NCBI GenBank assembly: GCA_943328785.2
Contig: CALQBJ020000009.1
Location: 1 to 36,548, forward strand
Direction of reading: 5' to 3'
Length of the DNA: 36,548 bases
Source of the DNA: Bifidobacterium breve
GTDB lineage: Bacteria; Acidobacteriota; Vicinamibacteria; Vicinamibacterales; CAVVIG01
Shown: piece after piece, positions 15,272 through 23,278 of the stretch
Layout of the letters: each line of letters starts with the position of its first letter
Numbering within the stretch: position 1 is the stretch's first letter
The notes under the pieces: model-generated
Database searches by the model: none
Told to the model about the DNA's origin: nothing
The model's input: only the letters and a program-made list of their open reading frames with translations
Translations under genes and position numbers: made by a program

Positions 15272-15341
15272 TCGGTGGCGCGGCGGGTACGAAGCACTGC
15301 CTGTCGGGCGTAGAATGCCAGTTCGACGTCCGAGAGGTGTC

Positions 15342-18017
15342 ATGAGGGCAGTTCGCATTTCGCTGTTGCTGCTGGTGGTGGTGATGCTGCGCCAGCCCGT
15401 CTGGGCCCAGCCCGTCACAGGATCCGTCGCCGGCAGTGTGTCCGCGTCCACCGGCATCGGGCTTCCTGGCGCGACGGTCACGGTGGTCAGCGCAGACGCC
15501 GGGATCCAGCGGTCGACCGTCACCGGCGCCGACGGCGAGTACCTTGTCGAGGGGCTTCCGCTTGGCGTTCCGTACGAACTGCGCGCGGAACTCGAAGGGT
15601 TCGCCACGGTCAGCCGCACCAGCGTCACGCTGACGCCGAACGGCCGCGACACCATCCGCTTCCTCCTCATTCCGGCGACCAGCGAGACGCTGTCGGTCAC
15701 GGCCCGGACGACGATTCGCGAACAGCAGCGATCGTCGATCCAGGAAACCATCCCGGATCGGCTGGTGCACAGTGTGCCGCTGATCGGCCGCGACTTCATC
15801 GCGCTGGCTTCGCTCACCCCAGGATTCACCGGCAACCCGGTTGCGCCAAGCCCGAACGGCCAGATCTACTGGGCGAACAACGTGCTGGTCGACGGTGCGA
15901 GCCACTTCTCCAAGTGGCGCAGCGCCGCGCGCACGTTCTACAGCGGCTACTCGCTCGAAGCCATCCAGGAAGTGCAGGTGCAGAACAGCCGCTTCACGCC
16001 GGAGTTCGGCGAGTCGATGGCGTCGGTGACGAGCGCGGTGACGAAGTCGGGCAGCAACGAGCGTCACGGGTCGGTGCTGTTCTTCGGACAGGCGGGAGTG
16101 CTGAACGACCAACCGGAGTTCGCGCCCGACAAGCTGGGCGGGACCACGGCCCGGTTCGGCGCGACGATGGGAGGTCCGGTGACGCGCGACCGGACGTTCT
16201 TCTTCGCCAACTACGAAGGCCGCCGCGCCCGCTCCAGCAACGTCGTGGTGTCGCCGGCGGCGCCGCAGACGACGGTGCCGAACAACGAGGACGAACACCT
16301 CGCGTTCTTCAAGATCGATCACCGACTCAGCTCGAACGATCTGGTGTCGGTTCGCTACAACGGGCAGCGCTTCGCGTGGCTGAACGAGAGCGGCGGGCTC
16401 TCGCTGCCTGGCACCGGGATGCAGTACCGCAACGACGTGCACACCGTGCTCGTCACGGCCACGCAGCTCGTCTCGACCCACATCCTGAACCAGGCGCGCT
16501 TCCAGTTGGCGCGCTACACCGACCGGCGCACCGACCTGCAGCCGTCGGTCTACGTGTCGCGGGCCGGCTACTCCACCGAGGGGTCCACGCTCGGGCCGTA
16601 CGGATTTGGCGCGACGCCGGAGGACACCTACGAGGGGGCCGACACGCTCACGCACACGGCCGGCCCGCATGCCGTGAAGATGGGCATCGGCTTCAAGTTC
16701 GTGCGGGCGCACAACGAGTCGCTGCCGTTCGGTCGCGGCGCGTACTACTTCGCCGGTCCCCCCTCGCTCTATCCGCAGCCCTACGCCTTTGTGCAAGGGC
16801 TGACGCAGACGCCAGGCGCGCCCGATGCGGACCCGCGCAGCATCTCGTCGTTCTTCTTCGTCCAGGATGAATGGCGCGCGTTACCGCGGCTGGCCATCAA
16901 CGTCGGGGCGCGCTACGACATCGAGCGCATCCGGAACGTCAGCGGCTACAACGCCGCGGCCGATCGCAACAACCTGCAGCCGCGCCTCAGTGCGCTGTGG
17001 ACGCCGTTCGGCGGGGCGTTCGGTGTGCGCGGCGGCGCGGGGCTCTACACCCAGCAGCACCTGCTCTATTACGCCAACCGGGCCGAGCTGGAAGGGCCGG
17101 GCGGCGCCGCCCTGATCACCCTCAATCAGGGGTCGCCGTTGATGCCGGTCTATCCGGCCGTACTCACCTCCGCCGTGCTCTCGCAGGTGCCGCGCGACGT
17201 CTACGTCATCGACCCGGGCTTCCGCAATCCGTACGCGGTGCAGGCGGCTGTCGGCGTCCAGCACCAGCTGCTCGGCTTCGACGTCGCCGCCGACTTCGTC
17301 TTGCTCGAGGGCCACGACCTCATGAGCCTCGTCGACGTGAACGCGCCGGCCTCGGCGGACAAGCCGGTCTTCCGCAGCCTGGCGCTCGCCGATGCGACGC
17401 GCCCCGCAGTTCCCGGTGCCGGCGGCTACCGCAAGATCCTCTCGCTCGGGAACGAAGGGCGCAGCTGGTACCGCGGCCTGCAGGTGAAGGTCGATCGGTC
17501 GGTTGGCGCGCTGATGCTCGTGTCGTCGTACACGCTGGCCCGCGCGCGCGACATGGCGAACAACCAGCTGCCAGAGGACAGCCACGACATCGCGGCGGAG
17601 AAGGCGCGCGCCGACAACGACGTCCGCCACAGCGTCACTGCCGGTCTCACCTGGCAGCTGCCGTCGCGCGGCGCCGGCTTCGGCGGCTGGACGCTATCGG
17701 CCGCCGGACAGTTCCGCAGCAACCGCCCCTACAACATCACCTGGGGCGACGACCGCAACGGGACGACGCAGAACGACGCGCGGCCGGGCGGCCGCAACAC
17801 CGGCAAGACCGACGGCTACCGCAACATCGACCTCGCGCTGGCGCGCCGCGTGCCGTTCGGCACCCGCACGCTGGAGCTCCGGGCCGAGGGCTTCAACGTC
17901 CTCAGCACCACGAACGACGATGAGTACGTGGGCGCCCTGTCGTCGCCCTTATTCGGCCAGCCGGTGAGCGCATTCCCGAAGCGCCGCCTGCAGTTTGCGG
18001 CCGTGGTCCGGTACTGA
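15342..18017 (+). CDS. TonB-dependent receptor with N-terminal carboxypeptidase-regulatory-like domain
   Basis: ATG 15342 MRAVRISLLLLVVVMLRQPVWAQPVTGSVAGSVSASTGIGLPGATVTVVSAD; plug and barrel text; stop shares a base with the next ATG (TGATG). Confidence 0.9.
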   Translation: MRAVRISLLLLVVVMLRQPVWAQPVTGSVAGSVSASTGIGLPGATVTVVSADAGIQRSTVTGADGEYLVEGLPLGVPYELRAELEGFATVSRTSVTLTPNGRDTIRFLLIPATSETLSVTARTTIREQQRSSIQETIPDRLVHSVPLIGRDFIALASLTPGFTGNPVAPSPNGQIYWANNVLVDGASHFSKWRSAARTFYSGYSLEAIQEVQVQNSRFTPEFGESMASVTSAVTKSGSNERHGSVLFFGQAGVLNDQPEFAPDKLGGTTARFGATMGGPVTRDRTFFFANYEGRRARSSNVVVSPAAPQTTVPNNEDEHLAFFKIDHRLSSNDLVSVRYNGQRFAWLNESGGLSLPGTGMQYRNDVHTVLVTATQLVSTHILNQARFQLARYTDRRTDLQPSVYVSRAGYSTEGSTLGPYGFGATPEDTYEGADTLTHTAGPHAVKMGIGFKFVRAHNESLPFGRGAYYFAGPPSLYPQPYAFVQGLTQTPGAPDADPRSISSFFFVQDEWRALPRLAINVGARYDIERIRNVSGYNAAADRNNLQPRLSALWTPFGGAFGVRGGAGLYTQQHLLYYANRAELEGPGGAALITLNQGSPLMPVYPAVLTSAVLSQVPRDVYVIDPGFRNPYAVQAAVGVQHQLLGFDVAADFVLLEGHDLMSLVDVNAPASADKPVFRSLALADATRPAVPGAGGYRKILSLGNEGRSWYRGLQVKVDRSVGALMLVSSYTLARARDMANNQLPEDSHDIAAEKARADNDVRHSVTAGLTWQLPSRGAGFGGWTLSAAGQFRSNRPYNITWGDDRNGTTQNDARPGGRNTGKTDGYRNIDLALARRVPFGTRTLELRAEGFNVLSTTNDDEYVGALSSPLFGQPVSAFPKRRLQFAAVVRY

Positions 18018-18982
18018 TGGCGCGCACCACTGCTCGCGTCACGCTCGATCCGCGCTGGCCTGCGGCGGCGCTCGCGCTCGTCGCCTGCCTCGTCACCGTC
18101 CAGTGCAGCGGCGGCGGCAAGTCGGGCGGCACGCCGACGAGTCCGACCGTGCCAGGTCCGTCGAATCCGAACCCGACACCGGTGCCGGTGGGTCCGGAGG
18201 TGTTTGTCGGCGCTGGGGACATCGCCATCTGCGGCGGCAACGCCGAGGCGACCGCCCGCCAGATCGACGGCATCGGCGGCACGGTGTTCACGCTCGGCGA
18301 CAACGCCTATCCAACTGGAGCCAGGGTCGACTTCCAGAACTGCTACGAGCCGTCGTGGGGCCGCCACAAGTCGCGCACGCGCCCGGCGCCCGGCAACCAC
18401 GACTACGGCACCGCCGGCGCCGCGCCGTACTACGACTACTTCGGCGCGAATGCCGGAGCGGCCGGTCAGGGCTACTACTCCTTCGACCTCGGGGCGTGGC
18501 ACATCATCTCCCTGAACAGCAACACGCCGGAGTCGGGCGCGGCGCAACTCGCCTGGCTGCGCGGCGACCTGGCGGCCACCACGGCCCGGTGCACGCTCGC
18601 CTACTGGCACCATCCGCTCTTCTCGTCGGGACCGAACGCCGTGAATGCCGGCGAAGCGTCGATCCGCACCTACGCCAAGCAGCTCTACCAGGTGCTGTAT
18701 GACGCCAACGCCGAACTCGTCATGGTGGGACACGAACACCTGTACGAGCGCTTCGCACCGCAGAACCCGGAAGGGGCGCTCGACACGGCGCGTGGCATCC
18801 GGCAGTTCATCGTCGGCACTGGCGGCGTTCCCCTGTACGACTTCCAGAGCGTGCGGGCGAACAGTGAGACGCGCCTGAAGGCGCATGGAGTCATGAAGCT
18901 GACGCTCTCGAGCGATCGCTACCAGTGGGAGTTCCTGCCGGTCAGCGGCGCCGGCGACAGCGGCACGCAGGTCTGCCACTAG
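18017..18982 (+). CDS. Secreted/lipoprotein metallophosphoesterase (purple-acid-phosphatase-like)
   Basis: Lipobox-like LVACLVTVQCSGGG; AGDIAICGG, TLGDNAYPTG, PAPGNHDYGT, YWHHPLFSSG, MVGHEHLYER: metallophosphatase motifs. Confidence 0.9.
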   Translation: MARTTARVTLDPRWPAAALALVACLVTVQCSGGGKSGGTPTSPTVPGPSNPNPTPVPVGPEVFVGAGDIAICGGNAEATARQIDGIGGTVFTLGDNAYPTGARVDFQNCYEPSWGRHKSRTRPAPGNHDYGTAGAAPYYDYFGANAGAAGQGYYSFDLGAWHIISLNSNTPESGAAQLAWLRGDLAATTARCTLAYWHHPLFSSGPNAVNAGEASIRTYAKQLYQVLYDANAELVMVGHEHLYERFAPQNPEGALDTARGIRQFIVGTGGVPLYDFQSVRANSETRLKAHGVMKLTLSSDRYQWEFLPVSGAGDSGTQVCH

Positions 18983-19006: not shown

Positions 19007-19873
19007 ATGTTGCCCCCAGACCGAGTCGTCCTGAACGCTCCGGAGCGCCGAGCGGCGGTGATTGACGTGATCCGTCACGCCCGGTCCCGGCTCTCGCTGT
19101 CGCTGTTCCGCTGCAACGACAAGGAGATCTTCCGCGAGCTGCGCGCGGCCGTGGGACGCGGTGTGGACGTCGAGGTGGTGGTCACGTCGCGCGCCAAGGG
19201 GGGCAAGAAGCCGCTGCGCAAGTTGTGGCAGCGTCTCGAAGACACCGGCGCCACGGTGCACGCCTACGACGACCCGGTGGTGAAGTACCACGCGAAGTAC
19301 GTGGTGGCAGACGAGGGTCCCGCGCTGGTGGCGTCGTTGAACTTCACGAAGAAGTGCTTCGCCCGCACCTCCGACGCCATCGTCATCACCTGGGACCCGG
19401 ACGTGATCGGCGGCTTGCGCCAGTTGCTGGCCACCGACCGTGACGGCATTGCCGCGCCAGACTCGCTGCCGTCACGGCTCATCCTCGGACCGGAACGGGC
19501 GCGCCGGCAGTTCACCGACCTCATTCAGCAGGCCACGTCGAGCATCCTGCTGATCGACCCGAAGCTGTCCGACCCTGGCATCCTCGGGCTGCTCGACGAG
19601 CGGCGTGCGGCCGGCGTCACCGTGCACGTGCACGGCGCGGAGCGCGTCGGCGACCTCAAGTCGCACGGCAAGATCATGCTGATCGATGGATGCCGCGTCG
19701 TCATTGGCAGCCTGGCGCTGACTGCGCTGAGTCTCGACTTTCGGCGGGAGGTGGCGATTGAAACCACCGACCCGGTCGTCGTATCCGACATCCAGTCTCT
19801 TTTCCGAACCCTCGGTGTGACCGCGGGTCTGCCCGGCGCTGTGCCGGCCGCCGCAGGAGGCGCCTCGTGCTGA
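19007..19873 (+). CDS. Phospholipase D-like protein with two HKD motifs
   Basis: KYHAKYVVADEGPALVASLNFT and SHGKIMLIDGCRVVIGSLALT both fit HxKxxxxD. No evident signal peptide. Confidence 0.88.
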   Translation: MLPPDRVVLNAPERRAAVIDVIRHARSRLSLSLFRCNDKEIFRELRAAVGRGVDVEVVVTSRAKGGKKPLRKLWQRLEDTGATVHAYDDPVVKYHAKYVVADEGPALVASLNFTKKCFARTSDAIVITWDPDVIGGLRQLLATDRDGIAAPDSLPSRLILGPERARRQFTDLIQQATSSILLIDPKLSDPGILGLLDERRAAGVTVHVHGAERVGDLKSHGKIMLIDGCRVVIGSLALTALSLDFRREVAIETTDPVVVSDIQSLFRTLGVTAGLPGAVPAAAGGASC

Positions 19874-21255
19874 TTGCTCCGTTTGCCCTGCTCTTCGCCC
19901 TCGCTGAATCACCGGCGCCCGCACCGGCTCCGGCCGCATCGCCCGTCGCCACGACGGCGGCGGCGCCCACCACGCCCCCCGTGTCCATATCGACCGCGGC
20001 AGCCACAGCCTCAGCCGCCGCGGCCCAGGCCGACAACGGGGAGTCGAAGGGGCTGCGCCTTGTCTGGAAGGACCACCCGTCGCTGCGGGCGGGCAAGTGG
20101 CTGCGCCTCGATTTCGGCGTGAAGCTCCAGGGCGACAAGATGTTTCCGGGCGACGACCCGAACAACTTCGACGACCTGCAGCTCACGCGCGCGCGCATCG
20201 GCGTCGACGGCGAGCTGTTCAAGGTGCTCCAGTTCAGCATCGAGCGCGAGATGACCGACGCGGGCGACCTGAAGGTGAACGCCAAGGCCCAGAAGAACGC
20301 GTGGCGCGACGTCTACGGTGAAGTGAAGTTCGCCGACGCCCTTCAGGTGCGCGGTGGCCGCTTCAAGGTGCCGTTCAGCCTCGACCAGCTCACCGGCGTG
20401 TCGAACAACGACTTCGTCTACCGCTCGCTCGGTGGCAGCTACCTGGCGCCGGCGCGCGACACCGGCGGCATGGTGCGCGGCCGGATGTTCGATCGCGCCT
20501 TCACCTATGCGGTCGGCTACTTCGAGCACGACGGCGACAACGCACGGTCGAACAAAGTGGCAGGTGGCGACCGCACGATTGCGGCCCGCGTCACCGCGAC
20601 GCCGCTGGCCGCCATCACGCTGCTGAATCTCGACAAGGCCGAGCTTGGCGCGAACTACGCCACGACCGAGGTCACCGACGACTCGGAGCTGCCGAACGGC
20701 CTGCGTGGCCGCACGGTGATGTCCGAATACACGTTCTTCGAACCGGTCTTCGTGCGCGGCAACCGCAACCGCTACGGCGTCGATCTGGACTGGACCGACC
20801 ATCAGTTCGGTGCGCGCGCCGAGTACATGGCCGTCACCGACGCGCGCGACGCGCAGGGGCTGCGCGGCAACAACCTGAACGCGGTGCGCGCGCGCGCCTG
20901 GTACGTCCAGGGCACGTGGGTGCTGACCGGCGACAAGAAGGAACGGCCGGTCGAGCCGAAGCATCCGCTGCTGATGGGCGGCGTTGGCGCCATCGAAGTT
21001 GCCGCGCGCTTCGAGCGCATGTGGTTCGACAGCAAGGAGACCGGCGAACCGGCGTTCAGCAACTCGCGCGCCGAAGTCGTCCTGCCCAACGGCGACAAGG
21101 CGTTCACGGTTGGCGTGAACTGGTACCTGAACCGCTGGATGAAGCTGCAGATGAACGCGATTCACGAAGAGCTGCAGGATAACGGCCGCACGCCACTGCT
21201 CGATGGCGGCACGAAGTTCTGGAGCACCGTGTTCCGCGCGCAGATCGCGCTGTAG
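19867..21255 (+). CDS. Porin, phosphate-selective O/P-like
   Basis: GTG start overlaps the PLD stop; FGVKLQGDKMFPGDDPNNFDDLQLTRARIGVDGELFKVLQFSIEREM...RGGRFKVPFSLDQLTG...VGVNWYLNRWMKLQMNAIHEE...FRAQIAL. Confidence 0.85.
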   Translation: MLIAPFALLFALAESPAPAPAPAASPVATTAAAPTTPPVSISTAAATASAAAAQADNGESKGLRLVWKDHPSLRAGKWLRLDFGVKLQGDKMFPGDDPNNFDDLQLTRARIGVDGELFKVLQFSIEREMTDAGDLKVNAKAQKNAWRDVYGEVKFADALQVRGGRFKVPFSLDQLTGVSNNDFVYRSLGGSYLAPARDTGGMVRGRMFDRAFTYAVGYFEHDGDNARSNKVAGGDRTIAARVTATPLAAITLLNLDKAELGANYATTEVTDDSELPNGLRGRTVMSEYTFFEPVFVRGNRNRYGVDLDWTDHQFGARAEYMAVTDARDAQGLRGNNLNAVRARAWYVQGTWVLTGDKKERPVEPKHPLLMGGVGAIEVAARFERMWFDSKETGEPAFSNSRAEVVLPNGDKAFTVGVNWYLNRWMKLQMNAIHEELQDNGRTPLLDGGTKFWSTVFRAQIAL

Positions 21256-21332: not shown

Positions 21333-21878
21333 CTAGCCGCGCTTCTTGAGGACCGAAATCGTCTTGAGGGTGCGTGCCGCGCGGATCACGAGTTCGCGCC
21401 GCACCGCCTTCGACTTCGCGCCGAGCAGTTGGTCGCTGGCAAACTCGACGAAGCCGGTGCGGTCAGACAGGCTGCGCGACGCGGCGGTCTCGACGATGCG
21501 CGACTGGTCCGGCAGCGGGGCAAACGAGAACATCTCGCGGAGCGACTTCGCATCCAGCCCTGCGGCCCGGCCGAAGGCGATGGCGGTGTTCACGTAGGGC
21601 GCAACCACGACCAGGCGCCCCTGGTCGAGCGCCGGCTTCACTTCCCACCGCAGGCGGAAGGCCAGGTCGGCCGCGTAGAGCAGGATAAGCGTGCGGGCCG
21701 ACGGCAGCCCGGCGTCTTCCTCCGCCACCATCAACTCGCCGAAGATACCGGACGCGTCCCACGCGGACACGGCCGCGCGCTCCTTGCGGTGTTCGCGGGC
21801 GAGCGTACGCGCCGTGGTGTCCACTGCGGCACCGTTCACACCATCGATGGCGACCAGCGTGCCGGGCATCGTCGTCAT
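21333..21878 (-). CDS. Thymidylate-kinase-like protein with degenerate P-loop (probable pseudokinase)
   Basis: MTTMPGTLVAIDGVNGAAVDTTARTLAREH...LLYAADLAFRLRWEVKPALDQGRLVVVAPYVNTAIAFGRAAGL aligns with tmk family; GxxGxGK[ST]T is GVNGAAVDT and the DR motif is AP. ATG overlaps preceding TGA (ATGA). Confidence 0.8.
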   Translation of the reverse strand: MTTMPGTLVAIDGVNGAAVDTTARTLAREHRKERAAVSAWDASGIFGELMVAEEDAGLPSARTLILLYAADLAFRLRWEVKPALDQGRLVVVAPYVNTAIAFGRAAGLDAKSLREMFSFAPLPDQSRIVETAASRSLSDRTGFVEFASDQLLGAKSKAVRRELVIRAARTLKTISVLKKRG

Positions 21879-22642
21879 CGCTCCCGGTTCCTGCCTGCCA
21901 GCCATTCGCCAAACGCGTCAGCATTCCAGTCCGACCAGGGGCGCGCTTCGCACTCGCGGAACATCCGGCGAATCGCGTGGTGCTGCTCGCCGATGCTCTG
22001 CTCCGCGTCGACGGTGATGAAGTTGAAGATCAGCGCCAGCGACTCGTACTCGCGGATGACGCGGGTGATGAAGCGCTGGTAGCTCTCGGTCGGGTCCTCA
22101 ACCTGCGTCACGTCCTGACCCGCCTCGTAATAGTTCGGCGTGCGCACAGCGGACACGCGCTTGCTCGACGTACCCGGTGACACCGAGAAGTAGAAGACGA
22201 TGTCGGGCCACAGCAGCGGCTGGTAGAGGCGCAGCACCCAGTCGAGGTCGAGACCGCGCGCCACGTCGCGCGCCAGCCCGGTGAACAGGAAGCGGTCGGC
22301 AATCACGAGCTTGCCGTCCCAGAGTGCCGGCAGCACTTCGTGATCGACGCGGTGCCGGAAGTCGGCGGCGTGGAGCAGCGAAAACTCCTCGGGGCTCAGC
22401 GAGCGAACCGCCTTGCGCGTGCGGATGATCGGCTTGATCAGGTCCGACGAGTTCCACTTCGTCGTGACGACGTCGTAGCCCTCGGACTTCAGCCAGGTCT
22501 TGAACAGCTTGCGCTGGGTCGTCTTGCCCGAGCCGTCGGGACCTTCGAAGGCGACGAGGAGCCCGCGTCTGCGCGAGGGATCGTTGAAGCGGGCCCGCGC
22601 CTTCTGGGTCCAGGTACGAATCGATACTGGCGACTTGATCAT
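21875..22642 (-). CDS. Thymidylate kinase-like P-loop nucleoside-phosphate kinase
   Basis: LLVAFEGPDGSGKTTQRKLFKTWLKSEGYDVV (P-loop), LLHAADFRHRVDHEVLPALWDGKLVIADRFLFTGLARDVARGLD (DR motif). Start overlaps upstream ORF stop by ATGA. Confidence 0.85.
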   Translation of the reverse strand: MIKSPVSIRTWTQKARARFNDPSRRRGLLVAFEGPDGSGKTTQRKLFKTWLKSEGYDVVTTKWNSSDLIKPIIRTRKAVRSLSPEEFSLLHAADFRHRVDHEVLPALWDGKLVIADRFLFTGLARDVARGLDLDWVLRLYQPLLWPDIVFYFSVSPGTSSKRVSAVRTPNYYEAGQDVTQVEDPTESYQRFITRVIREYESLALIFNFITVDAEQSIGEQHHAIRRMFRECEARPWSDWNADAFGEWLAGRNRER

Positions 22643-23278
22643 GCGCCTGCCGTGAGGGTGAGGCCGACGCGCGAGCCGCGCGGGGTCAGGATTGCGGAAC
22701 TGTCGCCCCCGCCGGGCCGGTCGTGCCACTCAGGGTCGAACGCGCGCTCGGACCATGGTGTCGCAGAAGGCACGTGGTCGTGCGAGGCGATCAGGTCGAC
22801 ATAGTGCCGATCTGCCCGCATCCGATACGAAGGAGGCAGCCCTTTACGAGTGGGACGACTGTCGTCCGCCGCCGAGTCGATGTCAGCCACATGGCGCCCG
22901 AATTCAGGTGAGTGGAGCAACGGTCGAGTCGTTATACCAGAAGCCACCGGGGCGTACAACGCGACTGGCCGACGATTGCAGCTGTCGTGTCCGACGACGG
23001 CGTACGGCGCAGCATCCAGAACTCGGTCGGCATCGACGCCGATCGCCACGGCGTAGTGATAGCGTTGAGGGCGCGCTTCGATGAGTCGCATCGGTGGGCA
23101 CTTCGCGTCGAGTGCGATGCGCAGCGCGGCCGCGGAGCCGACCAGGCTGGTCGTCGAGATCACCACCGTCGACGCGCCGCCACCGCGCGCCCGTCGGGAC
23201 GATTCAGCGCCCCGCGGTTGGCGTGGGCGCGAGCGTGAAGGTGAGCGGGGCAACGAGCACCGTACGGAACGTACGCAT
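22639..23278 (-). CDS. Unknown ORF, first gene of the kinase-like operon; start uncertain (possible frameshift near the 5' end)
   Basis: ORF 22639..23253 opens at TTG and ends in ATGA overlap with the kinase. A well-spaced AGGAGG (23284-23289) precedes ATG 23278 in another frame, giving only MRTFRTVLVAPLTFTLAPTPTAGR*. Body: TVVISTTSLVGSAAALRIALDAKCPPMRLIEARPQRYHYAVAIGVDADRVLDAAPYAVVGHDSCN... Confidence 0.5.

Follow-up and report, generated by a model that had tools for sequence, protein, structure and literature searches.

The window analysed here, a stretch of 36,548 nucleotides, is contig C9 of a host genome of 3.8 Mb in 312 contigs. It carries two overlapping minus-strand genes of the thymidylate kinase type, P0002 and P0001, which are referred to below as the live and the dead gene, and a block of plus-strand genes that runs towards them (Table 1). 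In the preliminary description of this DNA, the region had been read as a three-gene operon joined by two ATGA overlaps, with an ORF of no recognisable family in first place (P0003), a kinase-like gene with intact P-loop and DR motif in the middle, and a kinase-like gene that had lost its catalytic Lys and DR at the end.

Table 1. Features of the live/dead kinase locus, with positions in the window
Feature	Coordinates	Strand	Characteristics or evidence
ORF P0003, non-coding remnant	22639..23253	-	tblastn pieces, codon-position GC, gene caller
P0002, live kinase subunit (putative)	21875..22642	-	255 aa; thymidylate-kinase family; intact Walker A, DR, LID arginines
ATGA start/stop overlap of P0002 and P0001	21875..21878	-	sequence; 10/24 orthologous pairs alike
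P0001, pseudo-kinase partner (putative)	21333..21878	-	181 aa; Walker A Lys, DR, LID lost
Porin_O_P (phosphate-selective porin type), convergent neighbour	19867..21255	+	PF07396 2.5e-30; 21/32 loci
PLD-like protein, two HxKx4D motifs, convergent neighbour	19007..19873	+	PF13091 1.7e-28; 28/32 loci
Calcineurin-like metallophosphatase, same block	18017..18982	+	PF00149 1.3e-07
Outer-membrane beta-barrel (TonB-receptor-like)	15315..18017	+	PF25183 2.2e-82

Both ATGA overlaps are present in the minus-strand sequence (22642-22639 and 21878-21875), and the one at 21875 recurs in relatives, whereas the one at 22639 arose by chance. P0003 starts with TTG and, in line with the preliminary description, found no family match in Pfam or NCBIfam profile searches. 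Its codon-position GC of 0.71/0.61/0.72 differs from that of the kinase genes (0.64-0.69/0.48-0.52/0.87-0.88), and it was not called by a codon-usage gene caller, whose model, trained on 11 long ORFs of the window, is a local test only. In tblastn, two upstream genes of related loci aligned to P0003: a C39-peptidase/TPR-like gene of L033 and L034 (42-67 aa at 49-50% identity) and, in L034, the directly upstream gene through its C-terminus (55 aa at 31% identity). This indicates that P0003 consists of scraps of two upstream genes of relatives, so that the ATGA at 22639 overlaps by chance with the frame of a remnant and the unit has two genes; the three-gene operon was rejected on the combined grounds of codon-position GC, gene calling and tblastn. 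The second gene degraded within 22639-23253 of the window is still intact in L034 (9271-12563).

By sequence, P0002 belongs in the thymidylate kinase family. It scored 90.1 bits (1.8e-25) against PF02223 (Thymidylate_kin), above the curated cut-off of 27, and 103.6 bits against the NCBIfam dTMP kinase equivalog TIGR00041, whose cut-off is 83.25. The P-loop and DR ascribed to the middle gene were confirmed as a Walker A EGPDGSGKTTQ with K40 and a DR at 116-117 (ADR); the LID arginines are also present, and K40, D116, R117, R162 and R167 are invariant in an alignment of all 28 live copies. The nearest solved relative in a PDB search was 2plr, Sulfolobus tokodaii ST1543 (2.1e-43), and an AlphaFold2 model from a 24-row alignment (pLDDT 87.2, pTM 0.85) retrieved ST1543 as the top Foldseek match (TMt 0.85-0.90), followed by further thymidylate kinases. 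From its motifs and modelled fold, P0002 is predicted to phosphorylate nucleoside monophosphates with ATP, as a kinase of the type of Sulfolobus ST1543. A canonical housekeeping tmk lies separately in the host genome (G000:C204), and nearly all genomes searched likewise have a further canonical tmk.

P0001 is 30% identical to P0002 over 122 aa. It reached 27.4 bits (3.2e-06) against PF02223, with the cut-off at 27, and 32.5 bits against TIGR00041, below the cut-off of 83.25; 16 of 25 P0001 orthologues matched PF02223 at E<=0.01. Its nearest solved relative is again 2plr, and its AlphaFold2 model (25-row alignment; pLDDT 91.3, pTM 0.88) found ST1543 as the best Foldseek match among top matches that were all thymidylate kinases (TMq 0.55-0.76). 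The kinase fold, which the preliminary description had held to be retained in the last gene, is borne out by the thymidylate kinase fold of both models. At the aligned positions, DGVNGAAVDTT stands for the Walker A motif and APY for the DR, as had also been noted, and the LID stretch is missing, with a gap opposite residues 164-166 of the live protein. The column of the Walker A Lys holds K in 28/28 live copies and 9/9 housekeeping tmk copies but in 0/29 dead copies, and DR is found in 28/28 live versus 0/29 dead copies. Since both K and DR are absent from every dead copy, P0001 does not count among the active kinases of this family and is a pseudoenzyme relative; its sequence predicts that it can neither bind nor transfer an ATP phosphate.

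To find how far the two genes occur together, we searched genomes of the host class, the phylum and public collections. P0001 orthologues were found in 24 of 193 class genomes with 36-61% identity, well separated from the next-best matches, the nearest relative being a genome of the same genus as the host (G050). Searching the same 193 genomes with P0002 identified 23 genomes, each of which also had a neighbouring P0001. At all 24 class loci with both genes on the contig, the live gene lies directly upstream of the dead gene, on the same strand and at most 65 bases away, with an exact 4-base overlap in 10. A single-sequence P0001 search of public genomes gave no match; an alignment-based search yielded 32 Acidobacteriota loci, many of them from class genomes already counted and one cut by a contig end, and the live partner is adjacent at 31/31 uncut loci. 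The genomes added in this way include Bryobacteraceae and Candidatus Solibacter bins. In the phylum search, the dead gene appeared in two genomes outside the class (G250 and G526), in both cases adjacent to the live gene (L074 and L075). The genetic pairing of live and dead genes is obligate across classes. Of the three-gene order for which a synteny search had been proposed, the live/dead pair stood and the first ORF proved not to be a member. GK[ST] is absent from the dead homologues, and the pair is conserved far outside the host genome. These were the two points on which the preliminary description could have been refuted, and with both in its favour the active/inactive paired arrangement is supported.

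Two further observations concern the distribution of the pair. One genome, G058, carries two live/dead pairs (G058:C162 and G058:C303; L035 and L062), whose dead members share 56% and 46% identity with the P0001 of the window. Three loci of the Acidobacteriota type (L120, L097 and L117) come from records titled Cyanobacteria or Acidimicrobiia MAG; the matching genomes group with the host class, and the record titles look mislabelled.

The dead copies have conserved motifs of their own, SxWDASG, YAADLxFRxRW and APYxxTA, which are absent from the live copy, and W40, D41, A42, S43, D71, R75 and Y95 are invariant in all of them. The live counterparts of dead W40, S43, D71 and R75 are W63, S66, D94 and R98, which in this family are on the side of the monophosphate, whereas the ATP side is lost in the dead copies. 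Such a pattern would also suit a stand-alone regulator or sensor that binds a nucleotide or a small phosphate compound through a monophosphate-side pocket (SxWDASG, AAD..R) and forms no complex with P0002. We consider this unlikely, as P0001 was never seen without the live gene, as would be expected of an obligate partner.

The genes around the pair are of phosphate/polyphosphate type. The block facing it comprises an outer-membrane barrel, a metallophosphatase, STAS-DUF4956, a PLD-like protein, Porin_O_P and CotH, and among the 32 loci the PLD-like protein is the most constant companion (28), followed by CotH (21), the porin (21) and STAS-DUF4956 (18); the window locus is without CotH and without STAS-DUF4956. 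The beta-barrel gene precedes the phosphatase in several relatives. The gene order of the block differs between classes, and in Bryobacteraceae the block is found on the opposite flank of the pair, which indicates that the linkage survives rearrangement. STAS-DUF4956 and the pair occur together in 18 of 193 genomes (24 with the pair, 35 with DUF4956; Fisher p=4e-11, relatedness ignored), two of the 18 co-occurrences, including that in the host genome, being weak paralogues on other contigs. Conversely, 17 of the 35 genomes with a STAS-DUF4956 protein are without the pair, and in G113 and G056 the block occurs with no kinase pair, which argues that the pair is an accessory add-on.

CotH, a polyphosphate polymerase and DUF4956 have been described as one gene group (PMC7112168). 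In G124, a genome of the host class, the module known from the pair loci is built round a VTC polyphosphate polymerase instead (L190:2610-7481), in the order Metallophos-CotH-Porin_O_P-DUF4956-VTC with a true VTC domain at 3.2e-25, and DUF4956 adjoins VTC in four of the five other VTC loci examined. No VTC gene was found at the pair-bearing loci, and any VTC in only 1/24 pair genomes; with 2.6 expected (p=0.48), this is not significant, and an exclusion of VTC by the pair was rejected. Elsewhere in the class, it is the PLD-like protein, not the kinase pair, that stands where VTC would. The PLD-like protein has a weak PP_kinase_C_1 match below the cut-off, and its relative in L056 matches the PPK1 C-terminal domain at 1.6e-4, also below the cut-off; the latter match may reflect only the shared PLD fold. 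From these sequence features, the PLD-like protein is a possible phosphotransferase of the block. A defence system was also considered and rejected: P0002 gave only weak P-loop matches and P0001 none, and the DrmC-type matches of the PLD-like protein (best 7e-18) were taken as shared PLD fold.

A second tandem pair of the thymidylate kinase type was also observed. Its first gene has GSGK[ST]TQ, with K in 26/26 copies, and its downstream gene mostly has GVGR[ST]TQ, with R in 25/25 and C in one further copy (L128), the DR being kept; a Walker A Lys-to-Arg change conserved at such depth is unusual. These K/R pairs (L056-L063, L076-L093, L127 and L128) are spread across Acidobacteriota and two contigs labelled Bacillota (L127 and L128), and none was found on plasmids. 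Their neighbours include Ppx/GppA, a PstB-like ABC protein, PhoU, a PBP-type solute-binding protein, CHAD and a PHO4 transporter with DUF47, as well as PPK2 in L128.

P0002 could be a second dTMP kinase, serving DNA synthesis or salvage, with P0001 as a folding or stability partner and no link to phosphate metabolism; P0002 does exceed the equivalog cut-off for dTMP kinase, and the closest protein of known structure bears that name. What makes this doubtful is that nearly all genomes searched, the host included, already possess the canonical tmk, and that the neighbours in both pair types are of phosphate/polyphosphate type rather than of nucleotide synthesis. From these sequence data, a substrate other than dTMP appears the better candidate for the pair.

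The state of P0001 itself was evaluated from its conservation. Twenty residues are invariant among the 25 aligned orthologues, and the frame is open at every locus, with a variable C-terminus. The dN/dS ratios (NG86) of eight dead pairs were 0.34, 0.33, 0.19, 0.30, 0.36, 0.27, 0.38 and 0.35, and those of live pairs 0.09-0.21, with partial saturation of synonymous sites in the most distant pairs. The sequences thus place P0001 under purifying selection, in a conserved state and not in decay. That it is a decaying, functionless duplicate, as its faster evolution than the live gene and its variable C-terminus might suggest, is largely refuted by the invariant residues, the open frames, dN/dS well below 1 and the fact that it was never lost from the pair, and pseudogene decay was rejected as highly improbable. 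In the tree, live copies and dead copies each form one clade, which indicates that the loss of the catalytic residues is old and inherited, and single or nearly so. An origin of the dead copies from the K-to-R members and one from the live copies were both compatible with the data as constrained trees (AU p 0.29 and 0.083), the branches being long.

Taken together, we favour, at a probability of roughly 0.55, the reading that the two genes encode the catalytic and the pseudo-subunit of one nucleotide-kinase complex tied to phosphate/polyphosphate metabolism. P0002 would be the catalytic subunit and P0001 a pseudo-subunit of the same fold kept by selection, and both would be made from one message, given the observed overlap and a presumed co-transcription. 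In thymidylate kinases a long helix forms the dimer interface, and through this helix P0001 would most likely pair with P0002. Within it, live copies invariably have D or E at position 100, and the dead residue aligned to it, at position 77, is R in 97% of copies, a suggestive difference that would suit a heterodimer. P0001 may still present part of a nucleotide site. A heterodimer acting on a non-housekeeping substrate, as the preliminary description had envisaged, is plausible from the sequences; the complex is probably not for housekeeping dTTP synthesis, which the separate tmk covers. It probably works in a module with the phosphate-selective porin, the CotH kinase, the STAS-DUF4956 membrane protein, the PLD-like enzyme and the phosphatase; the association with this module is observed, and a role in phosphate/polyphosphate handling is probable.

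A wider reading, which we put forward as speculative and rather improbable, would join the tandem live/dead and live/K-to-R pairs into an undescribed class of polyphosphate-linked nucleotide kinases. This would be a heterodimer evolved inside the thymidylate kinase family and analogous to two-domain PPK2, moving phosphate between nucleotides and either a phosphate polymer or a CotH/PLD/DUF4956 membrane machine. Two or more versions of it would be spread over Acidobacteriota and some Bacillota. In the literature, we found no description of a paired or inactive thymidylate kinase or of its link to polyphosphate genes. Under family models such proteins carry the name 'dTMP kinase', which hides a strictly conserved catalytic/pseudo-enzyme pair. 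The pair is a tangible example of a nucleotide kinase that has gained a dead partner of its own, and its genomic context links nucleotide kinases to the handling of phosphate and polyphosphate in a major phylum of soil bacteria.

Among known systems, the closest in sequence is ST1543 (PDB 2plr, 4nzy, 4rzx and 5h70; PF02223), with which P0002 shares about 38-41% identity in the structural alignment. P0002 shares with it the WNSS, DF..R, DRY-type and LID features and the predicted fold, and P0001 shares the fold. However, ST1543 was deposited as a single dTMP kinase, whereas P0002 is always paired with a copy without Walker A Lys, DR and LID. The K/R pair resembles the live/dead pair in consisting of two tandem genes of the thymidylate kinase type, the first intact and the second with an altered Walker A Lys, and in its phosphate/polyphosphate neighbourhood. 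It differs in that its second member, unlike P0001, has changed only the Lys, to R or in L128 to C, with DR and most motifs retained, and that its neighbours are Ppx/GppA, PstB/PhoU, a PBP-type phosphate-binding-like protein, PHO4, CHAD and PPK2 instead of the CotH, porin and DUF4956 of the live/dead pair. The CotH-VTC-DUF4956 set, found beside pel loci in streptococci and clostridia (PMC7112168), likewise combines CotH with DUF4956; pair-bearing loci, by contrast, lack VTC and have the kinase pair and a PLD-like protein.

In class II PPK2 of Pseudomonas aeruginosa (PA3455, PPK2C), an inactive domain resembling thymidylate kinase is fused to an active one (PMC8776046). The likeness to the live/dead pair lies in the fold, in the combination of one inactive and one active unit, and in phosphate metabolism. 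In PPK2C, however, a single chain holds both domains, the inactive one leading, whereas P0002 and P0001 are two genes with the active one first and with thymidylate-kinase motifs, and neither is a PPK2 by profile, with no match to PF03976 at E<=10. PPK2C uses polyphosphate; for P0002, ATP is the predicted donor. By analogy, class II PPK2 would be the nearest functional counterpart of the live/dead pair.
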